From positions 1 to 41,766 of the forward strand of contig JAVCCG010000110.1 of NCBI GenBank assembly GCA_030765605.1: a DNA stretch of 41,766 nt. The letters are read 5' to 3'. A model generated the notes under the pieces. The model saw nothing but the letters and a program-made list of their open reading frames with translations, was not told the origin of the DNA and ran no database searches. The position numbers and the translations under genes were made by a program. This stretch comes from Candidatus Alcyoniella australis. GTDB taxonomy: Bacteria > Lernaellota > Lernaellaia > JAVCCG01 > Alcyoniellaceae. Every line of letters starts with the position of its first letter. Positions within the stretch are counted from its first letter, which is position 1. Positions 7,427-25,043 of this stretch are shown in pieces.

Positions 7427-8379
7427 GTAAGGCATTGGTAACAGGCGGAGCGGGATTTATCGGCAGCCACATGGCGCAGCGGCTGCTCGATCTGGACTGG
7501 GACGTGACCGTGATCGACAACGAATCCACGGGCAACCCGGCCAACGTGCCAAAGGGCGTGCGCTACATTAAGGGCGACGTGCGCAATCGCCGTGAGCTGG
7601 CCGCGGCCTTTGACCAACCGCTTGATCTGGTGGTGCACATCGCCGGGCAGGCCTCGACGATCCGCAGTTTTCTCGACCCGGCGGACGACTTGTCGGTCAA
7701 CGTCAACGGCGCGATCGAGGTGATGCAGGCCGTGGTCGAGCATCGCGTGCCGCGCGTACTTTACGCCTCGAGCATGACCGCCTATGGCCTTCCCCAGCGG
7801 CTGCCCGTGACCGAGGACGACCCGACCCTGCCGGTGAGCTACTACGGCATTACCAAGCTCGCGGCCGAACGCTATCTGTTGGCCACGGGCATGCGCAGCG
7901 ATTTGGACGCGCCGCCGAATGTCACGGCGTTTCGCATGTTCAACGTCTACGGTCCGCGACAGAGCCTGTCCAACCCCTACCAGGGTGTGCTGGCGATCTT
8001 TATCAACGCCGCGTTGCGCGGTCTGCCGATCGTGATCCACTCCGATGGCGAGCAGTCGCGCGACTTCATATTTATCGACGACGTGGTCAACGCCTGGATC
8101 GCGGCGATCGACAAGCCCGCGTCCTACGGCCAGGTGTTCAACCTGGGCTCGGGCACGCTGCTGACCGTCAACCGGCTGGTCGACTCGGTGCTCGCGGATT
8201 TGGGCAAGACGCGCGAGGACTACGAGGTGCGCTACGAGCCGGTGCGGCCCGGAGACCAGCGCCACATGCAGGCCAAGATTGCCAAGGCCGCGCAGCTGCT
8301 GGACTGGCAACCGCAGGTGACGTTCGAGCAGGGATTGCAACGAACCATCCAATGGGCCAAGACCGAGGAGGAGAGTTGA
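7423..8379 (+). CDS. NAD-dependent epimerase/dehydratase (extended SDR, UDP-glucose 4-epimerase-like)
   Basis: The 318-residue protein starts at ATG overlapping the previous stop. The N-terminal GGAGFIGSH dinucleotide-binding motif, an ASSMTAYG strand and the catalytic Y141-x3-K145 (YGITK) identify an extended short-chain dehydrogenase/reductase. RMFNVYGPRQ, SRDFIFIDDVV and FNLGSGTLLTV are the usual motifs of nucleotide-sugar epimerases such as GalE and WbpP. It probably epimerises or dehydrates a nucleotide sugar in the cytoplasm to supply the glycosyltransferase in this operon. The exact sugar cannot be read from the sequence. Confidence 0.9.
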   Translation: MSKALVTGGAGFIGSHMAQRLLDLDWDVTVIDNESTGNPANVPKGVRYIKGDVRNRRELAAAFDQPLDLVVHIAGQASTIRSFLDPADDLSVNVNGAIEVMQAVVEHRVPRVLYASSMTAYGLPQRLPVTEDDPTLPVSYYGITKLAAERYLLATGMRSDLDAPPNVTAFRMFNVYGPRQSLSNPYQGVLAIFINAALRGLPIVIHSDGEQSRDFIFIDDVVNAWIAAIDKPASYGQVFNLGSGTLLTVNRLVDSVLADLGKTREDYEVRYEPVRPGDQRHMQAKIAKAAQLLDWQPQVTFEQGLQRTIQWAKTEEES

Positions 8380-9392
8380 GAGTACTGATCACCGGAGGAG
8401 CCGGCTTCGTCGGCTGCAACGCGGCCAACAGGATGATGGCCGACGGCCACCAGGTGGCGCTGCTGGACAACCTGTCGCGCCGCGGCTCGCGCTCGAACCT
8501 CGAGTGGCTCAAGGGGCGCGGCGATTTCGAGTTCTTCGAGTGCGACGTGCGCGACGCCGACGCGGTGAACGCCGCGCTAAGCGAATTCAAGCCGCAGGCG
8601 ATGATCCATCTCGCGGCGCAGGTCGCGGTCACGACCTCGGTTGAGAATCCGCGCGAAGATTTCGAGATCAACGCCCAGGGCACGCTCAACGTGCTCGAGG
8701 CGGCGCGCGCGCTGGACGAGCTGCCGTTCGTGGTCTTCGCCTCGACCAACAAGGTCTACGGCAAGATGGAGGACCTCAAAATCCGGCAAGATGGTCGGCG
8801 CTACGCCTACCAGGACCTGCCCCACGGCGTGGACGCTCAGCGGCCGTTGGATTTCTACTCGCCCTACGGCTGCTCCAAGGGCGCGGCCGACCAGTACGTG
8901 CGCGACTATCAACGGATCTACGGCCTGCCCAGCTGCGTGTTCCGCATGAGCTGCATCTACGGCACGCGGCAGTTCGGCGTCGAGGATCAGGGCTGGGTCG
9001 CCTGGTTCGTAATCGCCGCGGTGCTGGGCAAACAATTAACAATCTATGGCGACGGGATGCAGGTGCGCGACGTGCTGTTCGTTGAGGACCTGGTCGACGC
9101 CTACGCCCGCGCGATCGCGCAGCCGCAGGTCTCGGCGGGTAATATCTTCAACATCGGCGGCGGGCCGCAGCGCCAGCTTTCGCTGCTGGAGCTGATCGAA
9201 ATGCTCGAGCGCCGACTGGATCGCAAGATCGAACCGGCGTTCGCGGACTGGCGTCCCGGCGACCAGTTGATCTACGTCTCGGACATCCGCCGCGTGGAGG
9301 ACGAGCTGGGCTGGAAGCAAAAGGTTGACGTGGAGCAGGGCGTGGAGCGGCTGATCGATTGGGTTTCGCAAAACAAAGGTCTGTTCCAGTGA
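8376..9392 (+). CDS. CDP-paratose 2-epimerase-like NAD-dependent epimerase
   Basis: The frame is open upstream, but the TTG at 8376, overlapping the previous stop (TTGA) and preceded by GAGGAGGAG, gives the canonical start MRVLITGGAGFVG and is chosen; this yields 338 residues. Motifs are NLSRRG after the second strand, ASTNKVYG, LDFYSPYGCSKGAADQY with Y164-x3-K168, and GVEDQGWVAWF. The last two patterns are characteristic of the CDP-paratose 2-epimerase (RfbE/Tyv) subfamily rather than generic GalE. That enzyme makes CDP-tyvelose from CDP-paratose. The CDP-sugar synthesis genes that would feed it (rfbF, rfbG, ddhC, rfbS types) are not in the window, so the true substrate may be another nucleotide sugar. 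Confidence 0.87.
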   Translation: MRVLITGGAGFVGCNAANRMMADGHQVALLDNLSRRGSRSNLEWLKGRGDFEFFECDVRDADAVNAALSEFKPQAMIHLAAQVAVTTSVENPREDFEINAQGTLNVLEAARALDELPFVVFASTNKVYGKMEDLKIRQDGRRYAYQDLPHGVDAQRPLDFYSPYGCSKGAADQYVRDYQRIYGLPSCVFRMSCIYGTRQFGVEDQGWVAWFVIAAVLGKQLTIYGDGMQVRDVLFVEDLVDAYARAIAQPQVSAGNIFNIGGGPQRQLSLLELIEMLERRLDRKIEPAFADWRPGDQLIYVSDIRRVEDELGWKQKVDVEQGVERLIDWVSQNKGLFQ

Positions 9393-9402: not shown

Positions 9403-10500
9403 TTGAGCACGCGCAGCAGCCTGAAAAGCCAGCTGGTCAATTTCCAGGTCTTCCGGCCGTTCTTCCCGATCGGTCGGCTGATCGTGGAGACCGTGACCTT
9501 TCCGCTGGACTACTATCTGCGCGGCGGCCGCGGGCGGCGTCTGCCCTCGATCATCAACTTCAACGTCACCACCCGCTGCAATCTCAACTGCGAGTTCTGC
9601 TTCAACGCCGAGAACTCGATACAGCGCGGCGAGGAGCTGGATTTGGCCCAGATCGAACGGCTGTTCAACGAGCTGGGCACCGAGCGCAGCGGGATATTTC
9701 TTTCGGGCGGCGAGCCGTTCGTGCGCAAGGACCTGCCCGATATCGTCCAGCTGGCCAAGCGCCGCGGCTGCGCCACGGGGATCGTAACCAACGGGCTGTT
9801 GCCCGAGCGCGAGACGCTGGCCTCGCTGGTGGCTGCGGGCAACGACGTAATGATCTTCAGCTTCCACGGCATGGCGCAGAACCACGACCGGGCGGTGGGC
9901 TTGCCCGGCGCGTTCGAACGCTCGATGAACAACCTGCGAACCTACGGCGGAGAGCTTGGCGGCAAGGGCTGCATGGTCAACTACATCATCACCGAGCAGT
10001 CGCTGGACGACCTGCCGGCGTTCATCGATTTGGCCCAGGATTTGCCGATCCGCACCGTGCGCATCAGTCACCTGAACTGCCTGACCCACGCTGAGTTCGA
10101 CGCCCAGCGCCGGGTGCTCGACAAGAATTTCCCGGGCGTGGAGTCCGAGGTGCTCGCCTACTGCCATTCGCCGAACCCCGACGACTTCATCGACAAACTG
10201 CTGGACATCCTCGAACGCTACGGCGAAAAGATCGTGCTCAAGCCGATCCTCGACCAGGCTGAGATGCGCTCGTGGTATTCCGAGCGTTTCGAGATCAAAC
10301 GACGTTGCGTATTCATCTGGCGTTCGACGTTCCTCAATGCCGACGGCGAGGTCTACCCCTGCCAGTTCATCTACCTGCCGATGGGCAACGTGCGCGGACA
10401 GAGCATGGAGCAGATTTGGAACAACGAGCGCTACACCGCCTACCGGCGGCTGGTCAAAGGCGGGCTAATGCCCGGCTGCGCCCGCTGTTGCAAGCTGTGA
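9403..10500 (+). CDS. Radical SAM/SPASM domain protein
   Basis: The 365-residue protein starts at TTG with a strong GGAGG just upstream. After about 45 residues with a hydrophobic or aromatic character comes a radical SAM domain with C59-x3-C63-x2-C66 (CNLNCEFC), SGGEPFVRKDL and a VTNG strand. The C-terminal part carries a SPASM-type set of cysteines (CVFIW, YPCQF, and the final PGCARCC), which normally bind auxiliary [4Fe-4S] clusters. Family members modify peptides, proteins or small molecules using the 5'-deoxyadenosyl radical. The SPASM region also carries the MGNVR...EQIWN pattern common in this family. It sits between epimerase and carbamoyltransferase genes, so a saccharide-related substrate is plausible but unproven. 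Confidence 0.88.
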   Translation: MSTRSSLKSQLVNFQVFRPFFPIGRLIVETVTFPLDYYLRGGRGRRLPSIINFNVTTRCNLNCEFCFNAENSIQRGEELDLAQIERLFNELGTERSGIFLSGGEPFVRKDLPDIVQLAKRRGCATGIVTNGLLPERETLASLVAAGNDVMIFSFHGMAQNHDRAVGLPGAFERSMNNLRTYGGELGGKGCMVNYIITEQSLDDLPAFIDLAQDLPIRTVRISHLNCLTHAEFDAQRRVLDKNFPGVESEVLAYCHSPNPDDFIDKLLDILERYGEKIVLKPILDQAEMRSWYSERFEIKRRCVFIWRSTFLNADGEVYPCQFIYLPMGNVRGQSMEQIWNNERYTAYRRLVKGGLMPGCARCCKL

Positions 10501-10507
10501 GCGGACG

Positions 10508-12214
10508 ATGAAGATTTTGGCGCTGTCGGACAACCACGGCTCGGGCGCGACGCTGCTCGATGGCGACCGGGTGCTGTTGGCGGTCAACCAGGAGCGCCTG
10601 GATCGCCGTAAGAACTCGGGCGAGTTCCCCTGGCAGACCATCGATGCGGTGCTCCAGAGCGCGGGCTGGTCGCCGCAGGACGTTGACCTGGTCGCGCTGG
10701 CGAGCAACTTCACGCCATCCTTTCCCTTAAGATTGTTCAACCGCCGACACGAGCGCATGCGGCGCAACGCCGGGCAGTTCAGCTACCTGTTCAACCTCTA
10801 CATCCTCTACCAGGTCGCCGCGCTGAGCCTGCCGCCGACCTGGCAGCTGGACATGCTGCTCTCTAAGCTGCTGATCAGCCGCCGTCTGCGCGCACGCGGT
10901 TTCAAGGCGCCGCTGCGATTCGTCGAGCACCACACGTCTCACGCCGCGGCGGCGTTTCTCACCTCGCCGTTTTCCGAGGCCACGGTGATCACAATGGACG
11001 CGATGGGCGACGGCCTGAGCGTCACGGTCAGCGTCGGCCGCCCTGACGGCAGCCTCGATCGCGTGTTCAGGCAAAAGGGCCTGTGCTCGCTGAGCAGCTA
11101 CTACTCGCGCGCCACCGAGTTCCTGGGGTTTACGCCCAACCGCCACGAGGGCAAGCTCACCGGCCTGGCAGCCTACGGCGACCCGTTCCCGCTGCTCGAT
11201 CAGATGAACCGACTGCTGCACTTCCGCTCGCCGGGCCTCTCAAGGCTCAACTACTGCCTCAAGCAGTCGCCGCGATTGGGTCACTACCGCGAGCTGCGAC
11301 GCCATTCGCGCGAGGACGTGGCAGCCGCACTGCAACTCAACCTCGAGCGCGAGGCGGTCAAGTTCGTGCGGCACTGGGTCGAGATCACCGGCGTGCGCAA
11401 CGTGGCGCTGGCCGGCGGCGTGTTCGAGAACGTCAAACTCAACCAACGGATCCACGAGCTGGACTCGGTGGAGCAAATCTACATCTTCCCCAATATGTCC
11501 GATTCCGGCCTGGCCTACGGCGCGGCGCTGTATGCCGCGGGGCTTGAGCCGCATCCGCTGCCCACGGTCTACACCGGGTTCGAGTTCGATGCCCGGAGCA
11601 TCGAGCGGGCGGCAGCGCAGTGGCCCCACGGGGTCGAGCAGCCCGAGAACATGGAGCACGAGGCGGCCGCGCTGCTGGCAAAAGGTAAAGTCGTGGCGCG
11701 CTTCTGCGATCGGATGGAATATGGGCCGCGGGCCCTGGGCAACCGCTCGATTCTCTACAGCGCGGTCGACCCGGCGGTCAACGACTGGCTCAACCGGCGG
11801 CTGAAGCGCACCGAGTTTATGCCCTTTGCGCCCGCGACCCTGGTCGAGCACGCGGACGAGTGTTTCAACGGCGTGGGCGGCGCGGAGTTCACTGCACGCT
11901 TTATGAACATCTGTTTTAATTGTACGCCGTTCACTAGGGAGCGTACCCCGGGCGTGGTGCATGTGGACAACACGGCGCGGCCGCAGCTGGTGGCCGAGCA
12001 AGACAATCCGAGTTACTACCGGACTCTGCGGCGCTATCACGAGCTGACCGGCCTGCCGACCCTAATCAACACCTCGTTCAACATGCACGAGGAGCCGATC
12101 GTCTGTACGCCCGAAGACGCCATCCGCTCGTTCCACGAGGGACACCTGGACTACCTAGTGCTCGGCCACCTGCTGCTCAAGGGGCCGGAGGCGGACAGGG
12201 AGAAGGGGGCGTGA
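10508..12214 (+). CDS. Full-length carbamoyltransferase (NodU/CmcH family)
   Basis: The 568-residue protein has both domains of the family in the normal order. The N-terminal Kae1-like domain shows the DNHGSGATLLDGD start, NQERLDR, the metal-site HHTSH at H141-H145, a TMDAMGDG strand and ALAGGVFENVKLNQ. The C-terminal domain shows EYGPRALGNRSIL from E404, EFMPFAPATL, HVDNTARPQLV and LINTSFNMHEEPIV. It would use carbamoyl phosphate and ATP to make carbamoyladenylate and transfer the carbamoyl group to a hydroxyl, typically of a sugar or antibiotic. It is a second carbamoylating activity beside the split enzyme at 4104-7426. Seven bases separate it from the previous gene and its stop overlaps the next start (GTGA). 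Confidence 0.93.
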   Translation: MKILALSDNHGSGATLLDGDRVLLAVNQERLDRRKNSGEFPWQTIDAVLQSAGWSPQDVDLVALASNFTPSFPLRLFNRRHERMRRNAGQFSYLFNLYILYQVAALSLPPTWQLDMLLSKLLISRRLRARGFKAPLRFVEHHTSHAAAAFLTSPFSEATVITMDAMGDGLSVTVSVGRPDGSLDRVFRQKGLCSLSSYYSRATEFLGFTPNRHEGKLTGLAAYGDPFPLLDQMNRLLHFRSPGLSRLNYCLKQSPRLGHYRELRRHSREDVAAALQLNLEREAVKFVRHWVEITGVRNVALAGGVFENVKLNQRIHELDSVEQIYIFPNMSDSGLAYGAALYAAGLEPHPLPTVYTGFEFDARSIERAAAQWPHGVEQPENMEHEAAALLAKGKVVARFCDRMEYGPRALGNRSILYSAVDPAVNDWLNRRLKRTEFMPFAPATLVEHADECFNGVGGAEFTARFMNICFNCTPFTRERTPGVVHVDNTARPQLVAEQDNPSYYRTLRRYHELTGLPTLINTSFNMHEEPIVCTPEDAIRSFHEGHLDYLVLGHLLLKGPEADREKGA

Positions 12215-15200
12215 AAGCCCAGCAGATCGTCGAGCAGTACGACCGGCCGCGGATGGTGATGATCCAGACCACCGGCCGCTGCAACTCCAGCTGCGTGATT
12301 TGCCCATATCCCAAACTGCGCCGCGAGCTGCCCCAGGGCGAGATGGACCAAGGTCTGTTCGAGGACCTGCTCGCCCAGTGCGCGCAGATCGGCGGGTTCG
12401 AGCGCGCGATGGTCTACCTGATGAACGAGCCGCTGCTCGATCCGCTGATCGTCGAGCGCATCGACGCGGTCAAGGCGGCGCTGCCCGAGGCCAAGGTGCA
12501 CATCCTGACCAACGGCGCGGCGCTTACCCCGCGGCTGAGCGAGCGGCTGCTCGAATCGGGCCTGGACTGGATCGGTTTCTCGGTGCACGCCAACACCACC
12601 GAGACCTACCGCCAGGTCTGCGGACGCAAAGACTTTGCGATAATCCGCGGCCGGATTGTGAATTTTATCCAGCGTGCGCAGCAGCTCAAGGACCCCAACT
12701 ACTCGATGGTCAACATCTACCACGTGCGGCCCTACGTCAGCGACGCGGAGTTTGACCAGGCCGCGCAATTCTGGCGCGACCAGGGCGTGCAGCGCCTCGA
12801 CCTTTATCAGGGGTACGTCAGCCGCGCGGGCAACGTCGAGGTCTTTGGACACAAACCGCTACGGCACGACGTTCTCGCGGGCTGCCGCACGGTCTGGGCC
12901 TACCGCATGCTGCACGTGCTCCACGACGGCTCGGTGATTCCGTGCTGCATGGACTGGGCTCGCTCCGAAATCTGGGGCGATCTGAACAAACGTAGCGTGC
13001 TCGACATCTGGCGCGGTCCCGAGCGCCTGGAGTTTCTGCGGCGGGCCTGCGGCCAAGATGATGCTGACGAAGATTTCATCTGCCTGCACTGCGAGGACGC
13101 GATCGCGGAGCAATCCGAGCAGGCCGAACAGGCCGAGCAGGCCAAGCAGCCGACGGACGAGGCGGCCCAATATCCTGCTGCTGCCGTGGTCGAGGTTTCG
13201 GCGATTGCAACGGCAGAGGGTTCGCAGGCTCAGGATGAGGGTCAAGCCGCGGACGACAAGCAAGCAACGGACGATGAGCAGGATCCCTGCGTACTGCTGT
13301 TGCAGCTTCCGCCGTGGCTGCCGGCCAACCCGCCGTTGGGCCTGGCCTGCCTCTCGCGCTATTGCGCGGACGCCGGATTCCGCGCCGAGGTCTTTGATCT
13401 CAACATCGAGCTTTACGGCAGTAGCGACGAGCCCACGCGGCAGCTTTGGCAGTGGGAGCGCGGGGTGTTCTGGGAGGACGAGACCCAGATCGAGCAGCGC
13501 TTCGGCGCGCAGTGGGATCGTTGGGCGCAACGTGTGCTCGATCATCCGGCGCAACTGATCGGCATCTCGGCCTACGATCGTCGCGAGAGCGCCATCGTGC
13601 TGCTTGTCAGACGTTTGCGGCAGGCAGGCGAGCAAAGGCCGATCGTGCTCGGAGGCCCCGGCGTGCTCTCGGATAAGCTGCGACAGCTTTATTGCGGGCG
13701 GCTGCCGGGGATGATCGACGGCTTCGTGCTGCGCGAGGGCGAGCAAACGTTGGTCGAGATCTGTCGCGCGCTGGAACAGGGGCGGGATTTTGACGGCCTG
13801 CCCGGCGTGCTGACCGTTGATCCGCAGACCGGCGAGGAGCGCTACACGCCGCGGGCTGCGCTCGCTGCGGACCAGATTCCCTCGCCGACCTTCGATGGCT
13901 TTGACGTGGCGGCCTACACCGACAAGAGCCTGGGGTTGGAGTGGAGCCGCGGCTGCCTCAACGCCTGCGCGTTTTGCCAGGTCAACAAGTTCTGGCGCGG
14001 GTATCGCGCCAAGCCCGCGGCGCAGGCCGTGGCCGAGATCGTCAAGCTACACCGTCGCCACGGCATTGAGTACTTCTCGCTGGCCGACTCGCTGCTCAAC
14101 GGCGACGCGGAAAATCTGGCAAAGATCGCCGATGGCCTGATCGACGCGGGACTGCCAATCCGCTGGTCGGCCGGAATCGCGATCCATCCGCCGCTGCCCG
14201 ACGCGCTGTTTGATAAATTGGCGCGATCCGGCTGCTTCAGATTGGAGTTCGGCCTGGAGAGCGGCTCGGATCGGGTGCTGAAGTTGATGGGCAAACGCAA
14301 CAACGGCGACGACGCGGCGCGAGCCGTGCGCCTGGCCCACGCTACGGGGATCGAGGCCGTGCTCTACCTGATCGTCGGCTATCCGGGCGAGACCGAGGAC
14401 GACGTCGATCAGACAATCGACTGGCTTGAGCGCAACGCCCAACACGTCGATCTGGTACGTAGTCTCAACGGGCTAATCATCCTCGACGACAGCCCGCTTT
14501 TTAAAAAGGCGCGCAGCCTGGACATCGAGATGCCCGATTGTTCCGAGCCGGGCTGGGGCGCGCGTTGGGCCGTGGGCGAGAATACGCCCGAGACTCGCGT
14601 GGCGCGCATCGATCGCGTACGCGCGGCCCTGGAGCGTCTGGGCGTGCCCGTGGAGTTCTCCAATCGCGACGAGGTGCTGCCCACCCCGGCGTTCATCGAC
14701 GAGCGGATCGCCGGAATCAGCACGCGGCTGGATCAGCAGATCGGGCGGCTGAACAACGTTGAGGCGAGCATCGATCGGTTGCTGCAAGCCGGGCCGCGTC
14801 CGATTCGGCCGGGGTACGGCGGGCTGATGCTGGTGCTGCCGCCGGTGTGGGGTACGCAAATGCCGCCGCTGGGACTTGCATACGTAGCGGCCTTTGTGCA
14901 GTCCCAGGGCTACGATCCGCTGATTTGGGACCTCAACGCCTACATGGCGCGCAACGTCGAGGATCGGACCGCCGCGCTGTGGCAGGAGAACAACTTCCGC
15001 AACTGGACCGACGTCGACCGCTTTCCCGAGGTGCTGCGGCTGATCCGGCCGCAGCTTGAGGCCGCGGCCGAGCGGATCGTGGGCACCGGTCGGCGGGTGA
15101 TCGCCTTCTCGGTATACAGCCCCAACCGCGCGGCGGCCATCGAGCTGGCGCGGATGATCCGGCAACGCGCGCCTGATCGGGTGATCATCGCCGGCGGGCG

Positions 15201-18200
15201 CGGGGTGACCACGCACAACGAGCGTCTGCTGTTTCCGCCGGACGTGTTCGACGCGCTGGTTGTGGGCGAGGGCGAGACCGCGATCGTGCCGCTGATCGAG
15301 GCGATCTTCGACAATCGCGACATTGAACCGTTCCCGGGCGTGGTAGTGCCCGGCGGCGAGGCCTGGACCGAGCTTACCCCGCGCGAGCCGTGCGACGATC
15401 TGGCATTGCTGCCGTTCCCGACCTACGAGGGGTTCGACATAGGCCTCTACGGCGAGCCGGAACAGGAGCCGGAATTGCCGCTACTGTTCAGCCGCTCGTG
15501 CATCAAACGCTGCGCTTTTTGCAACGACCACGGGGCCATGGGCCGCTTCCGCGCGCGCCCACCCGAACACATGCTGGCCGAGATCCGCTATCACGTAACG
15601 CACAACGGCAGGCGGCGCTTCCGCTTTAACGACCAGCTGATCAACGGCGACCTGCGCAAGCTCGAGCGCCTCTGCGAGCTGCTGATCGACAGCGGACTGG
15701 GAGTGGAGTGGATCGCGCTGGCAGCCCCGCGCGGCGAGATGAGCGCCGAGCTGTTCGCCAAGATGCGCGCCGCGGGCTGCTACACGCTGAACTTCGGCGT
15801 GGAGTCCGGCTCGGACAAGGTGCTCAAGGCGATGAACAAGGGCTTCAGCACGGACGATGCGGCCCGCAGCATCCAACGCGCACGGCAGGCCGGCATCAAC
15901 ACCATGCTCAACTTCATTGTCGGCTTTCCCGGTGAGACTGAACAGGACTTCGAACTTACCATGCGCTTCATCGAGCAGCACCGCGAGCACATATGCGGCA
16001 TCACCAGCGTTAACTCGCTGATCCTGCTCGAGGGCTCACCGATATTTGATGACGCGGAGCGTCACGGGATCGTGCTGCCCAAGCGCAACGCGGATCTCGA
16101 ATGGTTCATTCCGCAGCTCAACACGCCGCAGATGCGACGCGAGCGCGCCCAGCGACTAGTGCAAAAGATCCGCGAACTCGACCTGCACTTTCTGGTGAGC
16201 AACCTTGAGGAGCGCGTGGACGACCCGACCGCGATCGAGGCCCGACCCGATGCCGATCAGCCCTGCGGGCCCTCGGAACCCGAGGAGCCGTGTGCGGTCT
16301 GTGACGAGCAGCCCGCGTCTCCGGGCATGCGCCCTGGAGAGCAAGACCCGATGCGCGACCAGCGCGGCACGCCGCGGCTGGAACAGATCGACAAGGGGCC
16401 GTTCGACGTGCTGCTGCTGCTGCCGCCGGTATGGGGTGTGGGCGTGGCGCCGTTGGGAATCGCCTACCTCGAGCAGGCGCTGCTCGACGCCGGGATCAAA
16501 GTCGGTTGCCTGGACCTGAACATTAAACTCTACAATCGCACCGACCGTCCCGAGCTGTGGACCATGGAGAGTTACAAGGCCTGGACCGACCCCGAGCAGT
16601 GGCGGCCGACCGTGGAGTCGATGTCAGAGCTGTTCGAGCACTACCTGGATCAGATTCTGGCCGTGGACGCGCCGATCATCGGCTTATCGACCTTCACCAG
16701 CAACATCGAGGTGGCGCTGGAGATCGCGCGGCGCATCAAGCAACGGCAGCCGAAGCGCACGCTGATCTTCGGCGGGCCGGGGATGTCCAACAGCTTTGAG
16801 CCCAATCGTATCGGACCGGAGAACGGCGACTTCGTGATCTTCGGCGAGGCCGAACACAGTTTGGTCCAGCTGGTGCGTGCGCTGCTTGGCGAGGGATTCC
16901 AGAGCGGGATCGAGGGCGTGCGTCGCGCCGGGGACACCGCGGACGTGTTGCAGATCGAACGGTCGATCGTGCTCAAGCCCGGGGAGTTGCAGTTCCCGCG
17001 CTTTCATTCGATACGCCTCGAGGAGTACTCCAGCCGCGCGGCGCCGCTTTTGGCCAGCCGCGGCTGCGTGCGACGCTGTACGTTTTGCAACGACCACCAC
17101 ATCTACCGCAAGTACCGCGGGCGTTCGGCCCAGGACGTGTTCGACGAGATTCGCTTTCACTTTGAGCAGGGGCGCACCGAGTTCACGTTCAACGACGTAC
17201 TGATCAACGGCAACGTGCGCGAGCTGCGAGGGCTGTGCAAGTTGATCGTCGACGCCGGGATGGAGATCCACTGGGGCGGACAGGGCGTGGTCCGCAAGGA
17301 GATGGATTTCGAAACCCTGAGCCTGATGCGCGCCGCGGGCTGCATGAGCATGGTTTACGGCGTGGAGTCGTTCTCGGACAAAGTGCTTAAGTTGATGAAC
17401 AAGCCGTACACCAAGGCGATGTGCATCGACGTGCTGGGCGCCACGCGGCAAGCGGGGATGGAAGCGATCATCAACATCATCGTCGGCTTCCCCGGCGAGA
17501 CTGAGGACGACTTCCGCGAGACCTACGATTTTTTGATCGAGCACCGTGGGCTGATCGACCAGGTGGCGTCGATTTCGCCGTGCCTGGTCAACCTCGGAGC
17601 GCCGCTGCAACGCGACTTTCAAAAGTACGGCATCGTTTTTCCCAAGGACGAGCCGTCGGTCAAGTGGTCCACCGCGGACGGCGAGAACACCTTTGAGGTG
17701 CGCCGCCGCCGACTGTTGCGGATCACCAACCTGGTGGCCGAGTGGGACAAGTCGATCCATACCATCAACCTCTACGACGACGAGCGCGACAATCTGCGCG
17801 AGATCGAGGCCTCCGAGGGAATCAGCAAACAGGCGCCGCGCGAACGTCTGGACGAAAGCAGCGGCCCGCTGCTGCTGCTGAGTATGGCGCCGCCGTGGGG
17901 CGTGGAGTTTCCGCCGCTGGGTCTGGCCGCGCTGGCGACCAGCGCGCGCGAGGCGGGCCACGCGGTAAGCGCCTACGACCTGAACATGGCGATGTACGAT
18001 GCGGCGGACGAGCAGCATCGCAGCTGGTGGCAGCTGGAGCACCTCAAGTTTTGGGAGGAGCCCGAACACCTGCAACAAATCCTTAGACATACCGCCGATG
18101 TGTTCGAGGCGTTTGTGGAGCGCGCGGCCCAGGGAGAGGAGCCGCTGGTCGGGCTGACCGTACACGCGGGCAACTTCCGGCTGAGCATGCGGCTGATCGA

Positions 18201-19287
18201 GCTGATTAAAAAGAGCAACCCGCAAAAGAAGGTGCTGCTAGGCGGCCCGGGGGTGTTCTTCGAGGCCGACCGACGCCTGATTCCGGCCGGGCTGGTCGAT
18301 GGCATAGTCGTTGGCGAGGGCGAGGCCACGCTCAATGAACTGCTCGATGCTTTCAAGGCCCATGGTGAGCTGCGCGAGACTGCGGGCCTGCTGCTCAAGG
18401 ACAAACCCTACAGCGAACGGCAGCCGATCCGGCCGCTGGAGGAACTGCCCACGCCGCTGTTCGAGGACTTCGACCTCGATCTTTATCAGAGCAACAAGCT
18501 GCCGGTGATGTTCGGCCGCGGCTGCATCGGCAAGTGCGCCTTTTGCAACGACCACCAGCTGATCGCGGGTTATCGCATGAAACGGCCCGAGACCATGCTG
18601 CGCGAGATCATGCACTACAGCGAGCGCTATACAGTGGGCGCGTTTGCCTTTAACGATCTGATCCTCAACGCCTCGCGCCCAAGGCTACTCCAGTTTGCGC
18701 GGCTGGTGATCGACGCGGACCTGTCGATCCGCTGGACAGGACAGGCGGTAATCGATCCGCAGATGACGGTCGACGATTTTGCGCTGCTCAAGCGCGCGGG
18801 CTGCGACAGCCTGGTCTTTGGGGTGGAGAGTTTCTCGGACCGCGTGCTTACGCTGATGGGCAAGCGCTTCAGCGGCGAGCAGGCGTTGCAATGCCTGGAG
18901 CGCTGCCGCCAAGGCGGAGTCGAGGCGCACATCAACCTGATCGTCGGCTTCCCCGGCGAGGGGCGGCAGGATTTCGCGCAGACCCTCGAGGCGCTGGTTG
19001 AGCACTCCGGATTGATCGACCGCGTCTCAGCGGTTTCGACCTGCATCATCGTGCCAAGTTGCGACCTGGAACGGAATCCCGAGCGCTATGATATTGTCTT
19101 GCCCGACGAGCACCACTGGCGGCTGTGGCGCACCTCCGACAACCAAAACACTTACGAGATCAGGCGCGAGCGGTTGGTCGAGTTGATCGCGGCTCTCGAT
19201 CGATTGGGGATCGAGCACGGAATGCACAACCTATACCTCGAATCGCTGGACGAGGACGAGCCACAGCGCCCGGATCAGCACGATTGA
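12211..19287 (+). CDS. 2358-residue protein: radical SAM/SPASM plus four tandem B12-binding radical SAM modules
   Basis: The start is GTG overlapping the previous stop. Residues 1 to about 290 are a radical SAM/SPASM module with C24-x3-C28-x2-C31 and auxiliary cysteines (IPCCMDW, CLHC). A Q/E/A-rich linker of about 60 residues follows. Four homologous units start near residues 360, 871, 1397 and 1885. Each has an N-terminal Rossmann-like cobalamin-binding domain (PPxW near the start, PPLGLA or similar, a GGPG or GGRG turn, then a GEGE- or GEAE-type loop) and a radical SAM domain with CxxxCxxC at C582, C1097, C1619 and C2105. Each also has a DxLxNG-like strand, GxESxSDxVLxxM and VGFPGE or VGYPGE. 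This is the class B (cobalamin-dependent) radical SAM layout, whose known members are often methylases but also do ring contraction and other chemistry. Typical members have one unit of about 450-550 residues, so a five-site fusion is exceptional. The substrate is unknown. Confidence 0.9.
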   Translation: MKAQQIVEQYDRPRMVMIQTTGRCNSSCVICPYPKLRRELPQGEMDQGLFEDLLAQCAQIGGFERAMVYLMNEPLLDPLIVERIDAVKAALPEAKVHILTNGAALTPRLSERLLESGLDWIGFSVHANTTETYRQVCGRKDFAIIRGRIVNFIQRAQQLKDPNYSMVNIYHVRPYVSDAEFDQAAQFWRDQGVQRLDLYQGYVSRAGNVEVFGHKPLRHDVLAGCRTVWAYRMLHVLHDGSVIPCCMDWARSEIWGDLNKRSVLDIWRGPERLEFLRRACGQDDADEDFICLHCEDAIAEQSEQAEQAEQAKQPTDEAAQYPAAAVVEVSAIATAEGSQAQDEGQAADDKQATDDEQDPCVLLLQLPPWLPANPPLGLACLSRYCADAGFRAEVFDLNIELYGSSDEPTRQLWQWERGVFWEDETQIEQRFGAQWDRWAQRVLDHPAQLIGISAYDRRESAIVLLVRRLRQAGEQRPIVLGGPGVLSDKLRQLYCGRLPGMIDGFVLREGEQTLVEICRALEQGRDFDGLPGVLTVDPQTGEERYTPRAALAADQIPSPTFDGFDVAAYTDKSLGLEWSRGCLNACAFCQVNKFWRGYRAKPAAQAVAEIVKLHRRHGIEYFSLADSLLNGDAENLAKIADGLIDAGLPIRWSAGIAIHPPLPDALFDKLARSGCFRLEFGLESGSDRVLKLMGKRNNGDDAARAVRLAHATGIEAVLYLIVGYPGETEDDVDQTIDWLERNAQHVDLVRSLNGLIILDDSPLFKKARSLDIEMPDCSEPGWGARWAVGENTPETRVARIDRVRAALERLGVPVEFSNRDEVLPTPAFIDERIAGISTRLDQQIGRLNNVEASIDRLLQAGPRPIRPGYGGLMLVLPPVWGTQMPPLGLAYVAAFVQSQGYDPLIWDLNAYMARNVEDRTAALWQENNFRNWTDVDRFPEVLRLIRPQLEAAAERIVGTGRRVIAFSVYSPNRAAAIELARMIRQRAPDRVIIAGGRGVTTHNERLLFPPDVFDALVVGEGETAIVPLIEAIFDNRDIEPFPGVVVPGGEAWTELTPREPCDDLALLPFPTYEGFDIGLYGEPEQEPELPLLFSRSCIKRCAFCNDHGAMGRFRARPPEHMLAEIRYHVTHNGRRRFRFNDQLINGDLRKLERLCELLIDSGLGVEWIALAAPRGEMSAELFAKMRAAGCYTLNFGVESGSDKVLKAMNKGFSTDDAARSIQRARQAGINTMLNFIVGFPGETEQDFELTMRFIEQHREHICGITSVNSLILLEGSPIFDDAERHGIVLPKRNADLEWFIPQLNTPQMRRERAQRLVQKIRELDLHFLVSNLEERVDDPTAIEARPDADQPCGPSEPEEPCAVCDEQPASPGMRPGEQDPMRDQRGTPRLEQIDKGPFDVLLLLPPVWGVGVAPLGIAYLEQALLDAGIKVGCLDLNIKLYNRTDRPELWTMESYKAWTDPEQWRPTVESMSELFEHYLDQILAVDAPIIGLSTFTSNIEVALEIARRIKQRQPKRTLIFGGPGMSNSFEPNRIGPENGDFVIFGEAEHSLVQLVRALLGEGFQSGIEGVRRAGDTADVLQIERSIVLKPGELQFPRFHSIRLEEYSSRAAPLLASRGCVRRCTFCNDHHIYRKYRGRSAQDVFDEIRFHFEQGRTEFTFNDVLINGNVRELRGLCKLIVDAGMEIHWGGQGVVRKEMDFETLSLMRAAGCMSMVYGVESFSDKVLKLMNKPYTKAMCIDVLGATRQAGMEAIINIIVGFPGETEDDFRETYDFLIEHRGLIDQVASISPCLVNLGAPLQRDFQKYGIVFPKDEPSVKWSTADGENTFEVRRRRLLRITNLVAEWDKSIHTINLYDDERDNLREIEASEGISKQAPRERLDESSGPLLLLSMAPPWGVEFPPLGLAALATSAREAGHAVSAYDLNMAMYDAADEQHRSWWQLEHLKFWEEPEHLQQILRHTADVFEAFVERAAQGEEPLVGLTVHAGNFRLSMRLIELIKKSNPQKKVLLGGPGVFFEADRRLIPAGLVDGIVVGEGEATLNELLDAFKAHGELRETAGLLLKDKPYSERQPIRPLEELPTPLFEDFDLDLYQSNKLPVMFGRGCIGKCAFCNDHQLIAGYRMKRPETMLREIMHYSERYTVGAFAFNDLILNASRPRLLQFARLVIDADLSIRWTGQAVIDPQMTVDDFALLKRAGCDSLVFGVESFSDRVLTLMGKRFSGEQALQCLERCRQGGVEAHINLIVGFPGEGRQDFAQTLEALVEHSGLIDRVSAVSTCIIVPSCDLERNPERYDIVLPDEHHWRLWRTSDNQNTYEIRRERLVELIAALDRLGIEHGMHNLYLESLDEDEPQRPDQHD
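13117..13143 (+). repeat. 9-bp (E-Q-A) tandem repeat in interdomain linker
   Basis: Three tandem units of a GA[G/A]CAGGCC 9-mer encode EQA-EQA-EQA inside the flexible linker between the SPASM-type module and the first B12-binding module of the giant radical SAM protein. Such low-complexity DNA can vary in copy number; here it only lengthens the linker. Confidence 0.7.
13288..19287 (+). repeat. Four diverged tandem B12-radical SAM modules (about 490-525 residues each)
   Basis: Modules begin near 13288, 14818, 16399 and 17863. The distances between their first radical SAM cysteines are 515, 522 and 486 residues. Modules 2-4 of this array share C-x3-C-x-F-C-N-D-H and an F-N-D-x-(L/I)-(I/L)-N motif. 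The first module has CAFCQVN and LADSLLNG instead. The pattern implies successive internal duplications followed by divergence, with the first module the most different. Confidence 0.85.
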
Positions 19288-19317: not shown

Positions 19318-20574
19318 ATGAGAAAGCAAACGCGCATCGGCAAGGCGGGAGCAGCTGGCATCGGCCGCAGGCTGCTGTTCTGGTCCGCCTTTGCGCTGAT
19401 CTGCTTCCTGGCTACGTTGATCGGCTTGGTCTGCCTCAACCAGGCGGCGGGCAAACTGCGACCGCAACCGCGGGCCGATGTCTACAAGCCGATCTACGAC
19501 TCGGACCAATGGCTGCCCTTTGTGCTCAAACCCGGAGCGCGGATCGATGCGCCCTACGGCGTCTACGGCCAGTACTCGGAACTGTTCGCCCGCTCGGACG
19601 CAACCTACGAGCTGAGCATCAACAGCCAAGGCTGTCGCGGTCCCGAGTTTGCGCTGCCCAAGCCGCCGGGCGTTTTGCGCGTGGTGCTGCTCGGCGATTC
19701 CTCGACTTTCGGCTGGGACACGCCCCTGGAAAAGACCTATGGCCGTCTACTCGAGGATGCGCTGCAACAGCGGTTCAGCGGTCAGACAATCGAGGTGGTC
19801 AATGCCGGCGAGCCCAACTTCTCATCGTGGTTCGGCCTGATCCACCTGGAACACCGCGTGCTGAGCTTTGAACCGGACTTGCTACTTGTCAGCTTCGGAC
19901 GTAACGACGAACTCGACACGGCGTTCAGCCCCCAGGACCTGAGCCGTAACCTGCCCGACAAGCAGCTTGTGCCGCGCGAGCTGGGATTTACCGCCAACAT
20001 GGAGTGGCTGACCAAGCGTTGCCAAGGCAACCAAGCGCGCGGGCCGCGCAACGTCCTGCGCAGCACTGCGCTCTATAGGCTGCTGGTGCGGCTGATTTAC
20101 GGCGAACAGCAGTACGAGGATCGCGGGATTGAGCTGCCGGAAGACGTGGTCTATCGCGTGAGCGTCCAGGACTACGAGGACAACCTACGCGAGATTGCGC
20201 GTCTGGCCCGCGCGGCGGGCGCCGACGTGCTGTTTATTGAGATCGGCGTGCTCCATCCGCAATACCGCGAGGCCATGGCGCGCGTTGCCGACGAGCTCGG
20301 CGCGCCGTTCCTGGGCACATTCGATCTGCAGATGATCTCGTCGGACTGGATCAAGGCGCAGCCGCGGTTGGCACAGGATCGCGAGCTGTTCCTCTCGATT
20401 CTGGGCGAGCCCGCGATGAACAGCAGCCCCGGCGGCTGGCTATGGTACACCACCGACTTTTGCCATCCCAACGCCATGGGGCACGCGGTGATCCACCGCG
20501 ACCTGGCGCCGCTGGTGATCGAGATTATCCAGCGGCGGCTTGCAGTCGGCCGCAGCCCATCCAGCGTACTCTGA
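19318..20574 (+). CDS. Membrane-anchored SGNH/GDSL-family hydrolase
   Basis: The 418-residue protein has a basic N-terminus followed by one hydrophobic segment at about residues 17-43, so the catalytic domain is probably exported and anchored. SGNH blocks are clear: GDSSTFGW with the nucleophile S128, NAGEPNFSS with the block II glycine, GRND with N196, and DFCHPN with D380 and H383 as the catalytic pair. Family members are esterases or acyltransferases, and related proteins de-acetylate or acetylate exopolysaccharides. It ends the co-directional block, 30 bases after the giant radical SAM gene, with no clear ribosome site. A role in trimming or acyl-modifying the product of this locus is inference from position. 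Confidence 0.85.
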   Translation: MRKQTRIGKAGAAGIGRRLLFWSAFALICFLATLIGLVCLNQAAGKLRPQPRADVYKPIYDSDQWLPFVLKPGARIDAPYGVYGQYSELFARSDATYELSINSQGCRGPEFALPKPPGVLRVVLLGDSSTFGWDTPLEKTYGRLLEDALQQRFSGQTIEVVNAGEPNFSSWFGLIHLEHRVLSFEPDLLLVSFGRNDELDTAFSPQDLSRNLPDKQLVPRELGFTANMEWLTKRCQGNQARGPRNVLRSTALYRLLVRLIYGEQQYEDRGIELPEDVVYRVSVQDYEDNLREIARLARAAGADVLFIEIGVLHPQYREAMARVADELGAPFLGTFDLQMISSDWIKAQPRLAQDRELFLSILGEPAMNSSPGGWLWYTTDFCHPNAMGHAVIHRDLAPLVIEIIQRRLAVGRSPSSVL

Positions 20575-20587
20575 AGATCGATTAATC

Positions 20588-23500
20588 TTAAAGTTTAATG
20601 ATGTCGTCCACGTATTCCAGGGCTTTACCCAGGCGTTGCTTGTAGCGCTCGGAGAGGCTGACGCCGCGTACGGCCCAGACGCGCACCGAGCGTCCTTCCT
20701 GGTTGCGCAGGCGCATGATGATCCGACTGAAGTCGCGGTCGGCCGAGACTAAAATGAAAGTGCCGACGTTGGGCTCCTCCGACGAAACCCGGGAGATTTC
20801 GTCGTAGATCTCGAAGTCGGCCCCGTCCTTATCGGCGTCCGGGGGCATCAGCGTGTCGAAGCCCGTGGAGCGGTAGAGCCGCTGGTGCGCGGAGAATACC
20901 GGATTGTCCCAGTTGGCCACGGCCACGCAACGCGCCATCGGCCCCAGTTGCGACGCCTGCTCGCGCAGGCGCTCGATCACGTGCTGCATGCGCTTGTTGT
21001 CGCGCAAATCGATCCCGCGCTCCTCGAGCTTGGTCTGCAGCGAGAGGAACAGGTTCTCGTGATCCACGAACAGTGCGATGTTGCGTGCAACCGGCGGCTC
21101 AACCGTGCCGTCGGTCTGGTAGGGCAGGTTACCGCGGGTCTCGATCAGCCGGGACAAGTGCTTGCTTAGCATTCCGGCGCTGATCGACAGCTTGCCGTCC
21201 TGCTCGCGGAAGATGCCGTAGCGCATCAGCCGCTCGACCGACTGGCGCCCCTCGAGCTGCTCGGCGGCGGAGACCGACGAGAGCAGTTCATCGCGCCCCG
21301 CCGACCCCAGCTCGGTCAGCCGCCGGGTCACTAGGGCATCGAGCTCGTTGAACATCGAGGCGTCCCACCACGTTGAGAAGTAGACCTCCTCGCGGGCCAG
21401 GGCCTCGGCCGCGTCGAGCACGTCGTCCGGGATCAGCACCGTGCGCATGTCCTCGCCCAGGGCGTGGACCACCAGCCAGTCGCCGAGCAGATGGACGAAG
21501 GCCGGATGCCCGCCGGTCTGCTGATAGGCGGCCTGTAGCAGCTCCTCGGGGAAGACGATCTTTTGCGAGGAGAACGCCGAGCTCAGGAACTGGTCGTGGT
21601 CGCGGCGCGTCAGCAGGTCCAGCTCGACACGCACCACCCGCGAGAACAGGTTGTGCTGCAGACGGTGCAGCAGATCGTCCAGCCGCCGGGCCGAGCTGAA
21701 GGCGGCCGAGAAACGACCGTCGTCGATCGCCGCGGAGAGCAGCGAAAGGAAGCTGCTGTCCACTCCGTTCTTGGCCTTGGCGAGGATCGCCTCGACCGCG
21801 TACTGGAACTCGTCGAACAGCAGTACGCAGTGGCGCTGGTCGTTGGATACGGCGTTGAAGAACTCGCCCAGGGTGCTGTCCGGGTCTTTTTCCAGTGCGC
21901 TGAGGTCGGGCGGATTGGTCAGGCAACCAAGGCTGCCCATCGTCTCCGCAATGCGGTTGCACAGCCCCTTGTAAAAGGCGAACTTCGAGGTCTGCGGATC
22001 GGCGAGCAACCCCTCGAGGTTGAGCCGCACCACGCAGAACTCATCGGGCAGGCTGCCGGCGAGGAAGTTGAACAGGCTGGTCTTGCCCACGCGCTTGATG
22101 CCGTCGAGAAACGGCACGCGGCCTTGTGGGATCTGCGAGAGGCTCTGGGTAAGACTGCGCAGTTGGTTGTCGCGGCCGACGAACAGCTCGCCGCGGTTGG
22201 CCGGGATGTCGCGCAACGGCAGGAACGGCGAGGTGATCGCCGAGACGCCGGCTGCTTTGAAAAAATCGGTCACGGTCACGCGCAGCGGCGCGCTGGGCTC
22301 GACCGTGCAGCGCTGCTTGTTGACCGTCAGTTCGGCCCGTACCTTGAAGGCGGCCTTGCCCTCGGACTGGATCGGCCGCAGCTTAAACTTGACGTAAGCG
22401 CGCCCGCCCGCGGGAATCTCGCCGATCGAGATTTTTTTCGTGACCAGCAGCTCGGCCGCGTCGCCGACCGGATCGAGGGTCACGCTGACCTCGTGCTGGT
22501 CCATCGGCTCGCGGTTCTCTACGACGAGCACTAGGCTGGTCGTCGCGGCATCGGAGCTGAGGAACGGGCTGATCGCCTCGATTGTCAGATCGGGTAGCAG
22601 CCGTACGTCGCGCCCCAGTTCGGTGACCAGCCGCTCGACCATCTGGACCAGCGCGCTGGTCGAACCCGCCCGTTCGCCGACCAGTGCGGACTGGGCTTCG
22701 ACCGCTTTGATGCGCAGTTTGTTCAGCGCGTCCAGATCGCCGTGGCTGGCCTCAAGTTCCTGATCCTCGACAATCCCGCGCGCCAGCTCCAGAGCGTCGC
22801 GTACGGTCGCAGCCACGTTGCCCTCGACCTGGCCCAGTGCCTCGAGACCGGGCACGGCGCGTTCGGCCAAGACGTAGGCCGGAATCAGGTCGTCGAGCTT
22901 GATCAGCTTGGCGCAATCGGCCGCGAGCTGCGCGGCGTCGATCGGCTCCACTGGACGCGGCGGCTCGGGCGGCGGCAGCTGCTCGTAGCGCGGCTGCGGC
23001 TGCGCGCTCTCGTCAATCGAGAACGGCTGCGACCGAATCTCCTCGACCGCAGCCTGGGCGATCAACGGCTCGGCCTGCTCGATCAGCCACTGATCGACCT
23101 CTAGTTCGCGCGCCTCCTCGAGTAGTTCCGGATCGAGGGTCGTCAGTTTGTGCCGCACTACGAACTGCAGCAGCTGGCTGGTCACCTCGCGTTTGGTACT
23201 GACGTGCGCACGCGAGCGATTGGTGATCTGCGCCTTGCGCAAGAACGCGTTCTTGGCCTGCTCGAGTTTGCCCATGTTCTCGTAAAGGCAACCGAGGTAT
23301 TCCAGATCGATATAGCTGTTGGGGAAATTGCGCGTGCGTTGGATGAAGTAAGCCGCGCCCTGTTCCTCGAGGCCCGAGGCGATGAAGTAGCTGAAGGCGC
23401 GCTTGAGTCGCTCGGCGCCGGGCCGCGGATCGGTCAGGCCCGGAACCCGCGCCGGGTCGAAGCTGATTGGGCCCGAGAGCAACTGCAACAGCCGGTCGAG

Positions 23501-24880
23501 GTAGTTCGCCGCCCGCTCCTCGTTGCCGATCTTGTTCGACAGGTAGAGCCCCAGCGCGGCGTATTCGTTGGTCGGGAAATGGTCGATCAGGTGCAGCACA
23601 CGCTCATCCCAGCCCAGGAGGATCGTCAGGCCGAGGATCGACTCGATGAAGTCGGTGTTGCGCATGTTGTTCTGCAGCAGGAAGTCCTGGTCCAGGTACT
23701 TCTGCGCGCTCTCCAGATCCTCGAGCTTGAAGTGGATGCAGGCCAGGTTCCAGAAGGTCAGGTAGTTGCTGCGCTTGACGTTGACAACCTGTTCGAGCAG
23801 ACGCTGGGCGCCGGTGAGGTTGCCCAGCCGGGCCTGGCAATAGGCCAGCCATTCCTTGAGGATCGGGTACTCCGGCTCCTCGGAGAACAGTTGGGAGAAC
23901 GCCTGCTCGGCCCGGGAGATCTCGCCCTCGGAGTCGAGGCGCTCGGCCGCGACCCAGCGGCCGTAGACATCGCGCGGCAGGCTGCGCGGACGGTAGGGCG
24001 GCTTGAACGCCAGCACCTCGCCCAGCCGCTCGCCCAGGGTTCGCAGTTGGGACTCGACAGTGGGCGAAATCAGCTCGACGACCTGTTGTTTGTCGCCGGC
24101 CTTGACCGCTTCGCGGATCTGGTCGTGCAGCTCCGAGGGGATGATCTCCTCGTGGAACGGCCGCAGAGCCCCGGACTCGATCCCCAGGCGCACCTGCTCG
24201 GGGAGCAGGGCGCTGACCTGCTCGCGGAACAGCCGAACGCGCTCCTTGAGCCGGTCGTGGCTCGGGAAGTTCCAGGCGCTTTTAAGCTCGCGTTCGAGCA
24301 CCGCCAGGTATTGCTCGTTGTTTTCCTCGGAGAGCCGCTCCATGTGCTGCGAGAAGGTATTCCACACCGCCTCCTGCGCTCGGCGCAGGGGAAGATCGAA
24401 GCTGCACGCCGGCCGCGGATCGGACTCGTAGCCGCGGTGACGGCAGATTGTCTTGACCTGTTCGGTGATCGTCTGCTGCACCTGGTCCAGGACGAAGTCC
24501 TCGGCCTGCACCGCATTGAGCCTGCAGTACAGATAGGTCATCAGGCTCTCGACCATTTTTTGTTCCCACTTGGCGAGGTTGAAGCACTCGGTCGCCAGGT
24601 TGGCGGCCTGTATCGCCTCGTGGGGCAGGTCGATCGCCTGCAGGGTCTTGGCCATGAACATCGAGGGAAAGGCGATTGATTTGTAGAGATTGTCGGTTTT
24701 AACCGTTAAGGGATTATCCTGGTATTGTTTGTAGGTATCCCAAAGTCTCTCCAGCGCCTCTTCCTGACGTGAACGTTGTTCCTCGGGTATTTTCTCGACC
24801 AGCGCCTTGAGCTCAGAAAAGATGTCGGGGATTGATTGCACCAAACGATTGGGAGTGAAAAATCTCCATTCGAAATCCAT
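20588..24880 (-). CDS. TPR-like / P-loop ATPase / NYN (PIN-like) nuclease multidomain protein
   Basis: The ATG at 24880 is chosen because AAGGAG lies seven bases before it; the frame stays open 108 bases further but without such a site. The protein has 1430 residues. Residues about 1-300 are helical and unassigned; about 300-545 contain TPR-like helical pairs; about 600-750 are a proline-rich linker and further helices; about 763-872 look like a beta-sandwich. A P-loop ATPase starts near FVGRD (about 898), with Walker A GIKRVGKTS (K933), Walker B LLFDEF (D1023) and a GGHPAF motif resembling those of AAA/STAND-type ATPases. A winged-helix-like segment at about 1183-1240 follows. The C-terminal 160 residues are an NYN/LabA-type domain with FVDHEN (D1273) and SADRDF (D1381, D1383), which match the acidic metal-binding residues of PIN-like ribonucleases. 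It is probably an ATP-controlled RNase; a defence or toxin-like role is inference. Confidence 0.85.
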   Translation of the reverse strand: MDFEWRFFTPNRLVQSIPDIFSELKALVEKIPEEQRSRQEEALERLWDTYKQYQDNPLTVKTDNLYKSIAFPSMFMAKTLQAIDLPHEAIQAANLATECFNLAKWEQKMVESLMTYLYCRLNAVQAEDFVLDQVQQTITEQVKTICRHRGYESDPRPACSFDLPLRRAQEAVWNTFSQHMERLSEENNEQYLAVLERELKSAWNFPSHDRLKERVRLFREQVSALLPEQVRLGIESGALRPFHEEIIPSELHDQIREAVKAGDKQQVVELISPTVESQLRTLGERLGEVLAFKPPYRPRSLPRDVYGRWVAAERLDSEGEISRAEQAFSQLFSEEPEYPILKEWLAYCQARLGNLTGAQRLLEQVVNVKRSNYLTFWNLACIHFKLEDLESAQKYLDQDFLLQNNMRNTDFIESILGLTILLGWDERVLHLIDHFPTNEYAALGLYLSNKIGNEERAANYLDRLLQLLSGPISFDPARVPGLTDPRPGAERLKRAFSYFIASGLEEQGAAYFIQRTRNFPNSYIDLEYLGCLYENMGKLEQAKNAFLRKAQITNRSRAHVSTKREVTSQLLQFVVRHKLTTLDPELLEEARELEVDQWLIEQAEPLIAQAAVEEIRSQPFSIDESAQPQPRYEQLPPPEPPRPVEPIDAAQLAADCAKLIKLDDLIPAYVLAERAVPGLEALGQVEGNVAATVRDALELARGIVEDQELEASHGDLDALNKLRIKAVEAQSALVGERAGSTSALVQMVERLVTELGRDVRLLPDLTIEAISPFLSSDAATTSLVLVVENREPMDQHEVSVTLDPVGDAAELLVTKKISIGEIPAGGRAYVKFKLRPIQSEGKAAFKVRAELTVNKQRCTVEPSAPLRVTVTDFFKAAGVSAITSPFLPLRDIPANRGELFVGRDNQLRSLTQSLSQIPQGRVPFLDGIKRVGKTSLFNFLAGSLPDEFCVVRLNLEGLLADPQTSKFAFYKGLCNRIAETMGSLGCLTNPPDLSALEKDPDSTLGEFFNAVSNDQRHCVLLFDEFQYAVEAILAKAKNGVDSSFLSLLSAAIDDGRFSAAFSSARRLDDLLHRLQHNLFSRVVRVELDLLTRRDHDQFLSSAFSSQKIVFPEELLQAAYQQTGGHPAFVHLLGDWLVVHALGEDMRTVLIPDDVLDAAEALAREEVYFSTWWDASMFNELDALVTRRLTELGSAGRDELLSSVSAAEQLEGRQSVERLMRYGIFREQDGKLSISAGMLSKHLSRLIETRGNLPYQTDGTVEPPVARNIALFVDHENLFLSLQTKLEERGIDLRDNKRMQHVIERLREQASQLGPMARCVAVANWDNPVFSAHQRLYRSTGFDTLMPPDADKDGADFEIYDEISRVSSEEPNVGTFILVSADRDFSRIIMRLRNQEGRSVRVWAVRGVSLSERYKQRLGKALEYVDDIIKL

Positions 24881-24887
24881 TGTCAAA

Positions 24888-24893
24888 CTCCTT
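24888..24893 (-). promoter_or_regulatory. Ribosome binding site (AAGGAG) that fixes the start of the ATPase-NYN gene
   Basis: Read on the minus strand, AAGGAG is followed after seven bases by ATG at 24880. The alternative start at 24988 has no comparable site. Confidence 0.65.
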
Positions 24894-25043
24894 GTCTCGA
24901 AAGATTGGCCGGCAAACAGACCAGCCGATGGGTCCGGATTTTTGGCGAAACGAAGCCGTATGCATGATCCGGGCAATAGATATCTCAATTACGAAACGAT
25001 TCATCGGTGATTGAACGAACCGAAGCAGGTTGTCAAAGATCGA

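Follow-up and report, generated by a model that had tools for sequence, protein, structure and literature searches.

The 41,766-base contig of Candidatus Alcyoniella australis analysed here (the window, which is the whole contig) encodes a single 2358-residue protein, chain A, in which one SPASM-type and four B12-binding radical S-adenosylmethionine (radical SAM) modules are joined in tandem. As far as our tools show, the domain types are known, as are radical SAM chains with two sites, whereas the five-site tandem architecture is undescribed. Chain A and its modules, whose bounds were taken from alignment, are as follows.

12211-19287, plus strand: chain A, tandem radical SAM protein with one SPASM-type and four B12-binding radical SAM modules (open reading frame, Pfam, orthologues in six further genomes).
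12223-13110, plus strand, residues 5-300: m0, radical SAM (C24/C28/C31) with SPASM (Pfam, alignment; nearest solved relative BtrN).
13282-14724, plus strand, residues 358-838: m1, B12-binding with radical SAM (C582/C586/C589) (Pfam, alignment, tree, fold search).
14812-16230, plus strand, residues 868-1340: m2, B12-binding with radical SAM (C1097/C1101/C1104) (Pfam, alignment, tree).
16396-17784, plus strand, residues 1396-1858: m3, B12-binding with radical SAM (C1619/C1623/C1626) (Pfam, alignment, tree, AlphaFold2 model).
17866-19248, plus strand, residues 1886-2346: m4, B12-binding with radical SAM (C2105/C2109/C2112) (Pfam, alignment, tree, AlphaFold2 model).

The frame opens with GTG and contains no internal stop, and GC content by codon position follows a coding pattern along its entire length (low at second, high at third positions). 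Five CxxxCxxC motifs begin at residues 24, 582, 1097, 1619 and 2105, against a chance expectation of 0.019 given the cysteine content of the protein. Pfam places five Radical_SAM stretches on the chain (PF04055, 361.9 bits against a cut-off of 29.5), four B12-binding stretches (PF02310), each directly N-terminal to a radical SAM core, and one SPASM domain in m0 (PF13186, residues 229-294, 36.5 bits against a cut-off of 21.5); m1 to m4 each run from B12-binding domain through radical SAM core to a C-terminal tail. An earlier note on this DNA had called the single open frame, the five sites at exactly these cysteines and four B12-type Rossmann modules ahead of the last four cores, all of which hold, and had overlooked the SPASM domain of m0. 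The chain also sets an annotation trap: its whole-protein scores for TIGR03975 and TIGR04013 exceed the cut-offs only through summing over four modules, and we rejected membership in either family on that ground.

Searching for the same domain order in six other genomes of the class (G001-G006, besides the window genome G000), we recovered a homologue in all of them, five intact and 41-47% identical over the full length. In the sixth copy (G005, L047:9986-17214) the reading frame is broken at the m0/m1 and m2/m3 junctions and again within m4, by shifts that may be sequencing errors or real splits. Stops or frameshifts between modules, a possibility raised in the earlier note, are thus absent from the window chain and five orthologues but present in this one copy. 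An assembly chimera or missed stops were rejected as explanations of chain A because the orthologues are intact in five other genomes. A database scan with orthologue alignment showed that two of the metagenome-assembled genomes (MAGs) carrying orthologues are named fen_1099 and FR-FEN-1099; FEN-1099 is a candidate phylum for which the names Ca. Lernaellota and Podoxiota have been put forward (PMC13248872), and kinship with these MAGs would place the window genome in it too.

Across the six intact chains (the window and five orthologues), the cluster cysteines of all five modules are invariant, as are the SPASM cysteines of m0 (C225, C245, C246, C291 and C294). Mean pairwise identity is 0.47-0.56 in the modules, with m1 the least conserved at 0.47, compared with 0.19-0.34 in the inter-module linkers, which are 19-101 residues long. 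Since the modules are far more conserved than the linkers, every module appears to be under constraint.

In a maximum-likelihood tree of 67 modules, m1, m2, m3 and m4 each form one clade across the class with 99-100% support. It follows that the tandem order arose before the class did, with no exchange of positions; a recent repeat expansion was rejected on the same separation. The one exception is the stand-alone module of G001 and G003, which descends from m1 and lies between the NodU-type carbamoyltransferase gene and the chain. The module profile matches its own family end to end (positions about 3-464), and ordinary B12-binding radical SAM proteins only over about 80-385.

The family extends beyond chain A. 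The same genome encodes a 2014-residue chain B (contig C119, L011:4953-10997), with three B12-binding radical SAM modules and a C-terminal radical SAM-SPASM part, which has copies in six relatives, one of them shorter and one fragmented in assembly. Its third module clusters with modules from Woesearchaeota, Wallbacteria and a RIFOXY 'Deltaproteobacteria' MAG (support 96/95), so that position-specific orthology crosses domains. In these same three groups (Woesearchaeota-type archaea among them) related chains, whole or split, are patchily distributed: Woesearchaeota encode m0 as a gene of its own immediately upstream of a 1960-residue chain (three B12-binding radical SAM modules and a radical SAM-SPASM part), in Wallbacteria m0 heads a 2191-residue chain, and a strong chain match was found in 5 of 279 sampled genomes of the archaeal phylum. 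Patchy spread combined with cross-domain orthology suggests, from sequence comparison, that the chain kit may have moved by lateral transfer. Chain B of the window genome adjoins PMT_2-type transferases. In one archaeal genome (G141, L071:2176-17390) a stretch of about 15 kb encodes a 1433-residue three-module chain, a 702-residue protein with one module and two asparagine-synthase-like amidotransferases, and contig C132 of the window genome (L013:3795-6827) encodes a 1010-residue protein that combines one module of the chain family with a C-terminal half that has no Pfam match.

By sequence, the best solved relative of m0 is BtrN (1.3e-14, with an alignment covering only about residues 15-137). 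We also built cofactor-free AlphaFold2 models of the m0-m1 and m3-m4 pairs. The m0-m1 model (mean predicted local distance difference test score, pLDDT, 73.2) matches the folds of OxsB, TsrM and MgmA, and its best SPASM/twitch-type match is BtrN, over a 270-column stretch with a target template modelling (TM) score of 0.65-0.70. The m3-m4 model (mean pLDDT 85.7) matches TsrM, MgmA, AprD4, CysS, OxsB and TokK. The profile of m1-m4 aligns with AprD4 in the core only, whereas its alignments with OxsB, MgmA, CysS and TokK run on through the cobalamin domain and take in the GGP and GEGE region. We infer that m1-m4 bind cobalamin and that all five modules of chain A bind iron-sulfur clusters.

The genes around chain A point to the chemistry in which it may take part.

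1387-4107, plus strand: GT4 glycosyltransferase-radical SAM/SPASM fusion (homologues in G001, G003, G005 and Wallbacteria).
4104-4739, plus strand: separate Carbam_trans_C gene (ATG at 4104; 4-nt overlap with both neighbours).
4736-7426, plus strand: carbamoyltransferase N-domain-radical SAM/SPASM fusion (domain scan).
7423-8379, plus strand: nucleoside diphosphate (NDP)-sugar epimerase family protein of the short-chain dehydrogenase/reductase (SDR) type (ATGA overlap with the preceding gene).
8352-9392, plus strand: NDP-sugar epimerase/dehydratase family protein, also SDR (profile scans).
9403-10500, plus strand: radical SAM/SPASM protein (counterpart also in G001 and G005).
10508-12214, plus strand: NodU-type carbamoyltransferase with Carbam_trans_N and C domains (overlaps the chain A start by GTGA).
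19318-20574, plus strand: GDSL/SGNH hydrolase family protein, directly downstream of chain A (kept in G004 and G006).

Chain A is the last gene of this tight operon, with the hydrolase gene next; four junctions have 4-nt overlaps (ATGA/GTGA/TTGA), and the remaining overlaps or gaps are at most about 30 nt. All seven class genomes have a NodU-type gene upstream of the chain. The glycosyltransferase, epimerases and carbamoyltransferases stand in the window itself; export and ligation genes were seen only near relatives, and the region upstream of base 1 falls outside the contig. In G001, LpxB, an MsbA-type ATP-binding cassette transporter, PMT_2 and KdtA lie upstream; in G006, the neighbours are MBOAT and GDSL genes. 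Chain relatives stand beside a GT4-radical SAM gene and an O-antigen ligase in Wallbacteria, GT2 and GT4 genes in one archaeon, and GT2 and PMT genes in archaeon G141, while two unfused modules in archaeon G191 are accompanied by Wzm/Wzt with Wzt_C, GT2 and GDSL. We take these neighbourhoods as probable independent pointers to a surface glycan.

Several features of the window stand apart from this argument. The glycosyltransferase part of the GT4 fusion (1387-4107) is 57-59% identical to Wallbacteria copies (L051, L052), which is close for different phyla. At 4104-7426 the carbamoyltransferase domains occur in reverse order, a C-domain gene ahead of an N-domain fused to radical SAM/SPASM, and in G001 and G003 C-domain, N-domain and radical SAM part share one frame, a circular permutation relative to NodU. 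Beyond the hydrolase, a minus-strand gene (20588-24988) encodes a 1466-residue protein that combines TPR repeats with an AAA-type ATPase and a NYN nuclease domain. No RNA families or riboswitches were found in the window.

With somewhat more confidence than doubt, we propose that chain A is a multi-site tailoring enzyme in which m0 oxidises, and m1-m4 modify, probably by C-methylation, a carbamoylated surface sugar or its precursor. The substrate class would be an O-antigen, core or exopolysaccharide-like sugar of a surface-glycan pathway. On this proposal, the GT4 fusion and the epimerases would build a glycosyl unit, which the carbamoyltransferases would carbamoylate; m0 would abstract hydrogen from a sugar carbon and oxidise it, by analogy with BtrN acting on an aminocyclitol, its target possibly being an alcohol of a sugar or aminocyclitol. 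After that, m1-m4 would each introduce a different radical change with the help of cobalamin, most probably by C-methylating unactivated carbons, whether of that sugar or of its neighbours; methylation, sugar substrate and order of steps are all inference. Holding five sites on one chain could keep labile intermediates and anaerobic cofactors together and fix the activity ratio.

Known systems frame this proposal. OxsB, TsrM, TokK, CysS and MgmA resemble m1-m4 in having a B12-binding domain followed by a radical SAM core, in the GGP/GEGE region and in fold, whereas described Rossmann-class enzymes carry one such module each and chain A carries four diverged ones in tandem; the four full structures reviewed each have a single cobalamin domain (PMC13331322). 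CysS and TokK reach up to three methylations by iterating at one site (PMC12846815), while chain A has four separate, diverged sites, which suggests that the four differ in target position or reaction and do not simply repeat one step. The aminocyclitol dehydrogenase BtrN, a SPASM/twitch radical SAM enzyme, stands alone, and m0 has four B12 modules fused behind it. MoeK5, GenK and GenD1 perform C-methylation with B12-binding radical SAM modules in the moenomycin and gentamicin pathways (PMC8992657), a precedent for such methylation in carbohydrate-containing natural products, likened to chain A by description, although they are single modules from antibiotic pathways rather than a surface-glycan operon. 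In the two-domain FO synthase FbiC, two radical SAM sites on one chain serve one reaction sequence, and its archaeal counterpart is split as CofG/CofH (PMC11917521); unlike chain A, FbiC lacks cobalamin domains, has two sites rather than five and belongs to an unrelated pathway. Polyketide synthases and nonribosomal peptide synthetases (PKS/NRPS) likewise string several related catalytic modules together on one chain in a set order, but their carrier, thioesterase and condensation domains were all absent from chain A in the Pfam scan.

In the open-access literature, FbiC-type two-domain proteins were the only relevant fused or tandem radical SAM chains; we came across no account there of a single chain bearing three or more radical SAM sites, or B12-binding radical SAM modules in tandem, in line with the earlier note, and nothing relevant linking radical SAM enzymes with polysaccharide, O-antigen or carbamoyltransferase. 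The earlier suggestion of a long or repeated substrate gained no support: old modules in fixed positions sit better with a series of distinct steps than with the same step applied to each repeat, and the genes nearby indicate a glycan rather than a peptide.

Several points weigh against the tailoring proposal. No module reaches the NCBIfam cut-off for any named function. Both AlphaFold2 models have a predicted TM score of 0.53, too low to fix how the modules are arranged. A B12-type Rossmann domain is no proof of cobalamin use, as AprD4 and MiaB match the fold without cobalamin, and cobalamin-dependent radical SAM enzymes also perform ring contraction, ring formation and P-methylation (PMC13331322). 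The host genome is generally rich in radical SAM genes (72 matching places). Finally, the genome search found neither CobS nor a MetH activation domain in the host, and without CobS cobalamin must be imported or salvaged; since two methylmalonyl-CoA mutases and BtuR are kept, the host is probably a cobalamin user that scavenges.

A bolder form of the tailoring proposal, which we entertain only tentatively, is a radical assembly line, in which five different sites would act in chain order on one tethered or channelled glycosyl substrate, yielding a densely C-modified sugar unknown in any glycan, from a kit that would have spread between bacteria and DPANN archaea.

We consider a small glycolipid of the moenomycin type, carbamoylated and C-methylated and either secreted or membrane-bound, an unlikely product of the operon in place of the main surface polysaccharide. 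The operon's glycosyltransferase, carbamoyltransferase and B12-binding radical SAM genes do resemble the moenomycin kit (MoeK5, PMC8992657), and the neighbours are compatible with such a product; class-wide conservation, together with LpxB, KdtA, Wzm/Wzt and O-antigen ligase near relatives, suggests instead a housekeeping surface structure, and the operon showed neither a resistance gene nor a dedicated exporter. That the chain is mostly a structural fusion, some B12 modules being inactive scaffolds around one or two working sites, seems somewhat less likely again: AprD4 and MiaB, close structural matches, share the fold without cobalamin chemistry, and m1 is less conserved than the rest, but the cluster cysteines stay invariant in every module across six species, the module cores are strongly conserved, and each position is a separate clade.

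Improbable, in our judgement, is a maturase of ribosomally synthesized and post-translationally modified peptides (RiPPs), with chain A modifying several residues of a ribosomal peptide like TIGR03975 or PoyB/PoyC-type C-methyltransferases. The best NCBIfam name for m2-m4 is indeed TIGR03975 (RiPP maturation radical SAM C-methyltransferase), and the SPASM domain of m0 is a feature shared by many RiPP maturases; yet single modules score 123-145 bits against the cut-off of 281.85, the full-chain 503.8 bits being a sum over four modules, and the neighbours are sugar genes. Because the operon genes are so closely packed and the extra small frames there all overlap annotated domains, no space is left for a precursor gene, and none was found in the operon (the rest of the genome was not searched). 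Very improbable is action on acyl or isoprenoid chains by hopanoid or ladderane-type B12-binding radical SAM chemistry, as the matches to TIGR04072 (lipid biosynthesis) and HpnJ, among the weaker profile matches, all fall below cut-off, the operon has no acyl or isoprenoid gene, and m0 resembles sugar enzymes.

If all five sites of chain A work, no polypeptide described so far would, to our knowledge, have more radical SAM active sites, and radical chemistry would prove organisable in modular chains, as PKS/NRPS chemistry is. Positional orthology makes this idea testable module by module. The surfaces of DPANN archaea are poorly known, and five working sites would also hint at a hitherto unknown class of heavily C-modified surface sugars in these archaea and in uncultured anaerobes.
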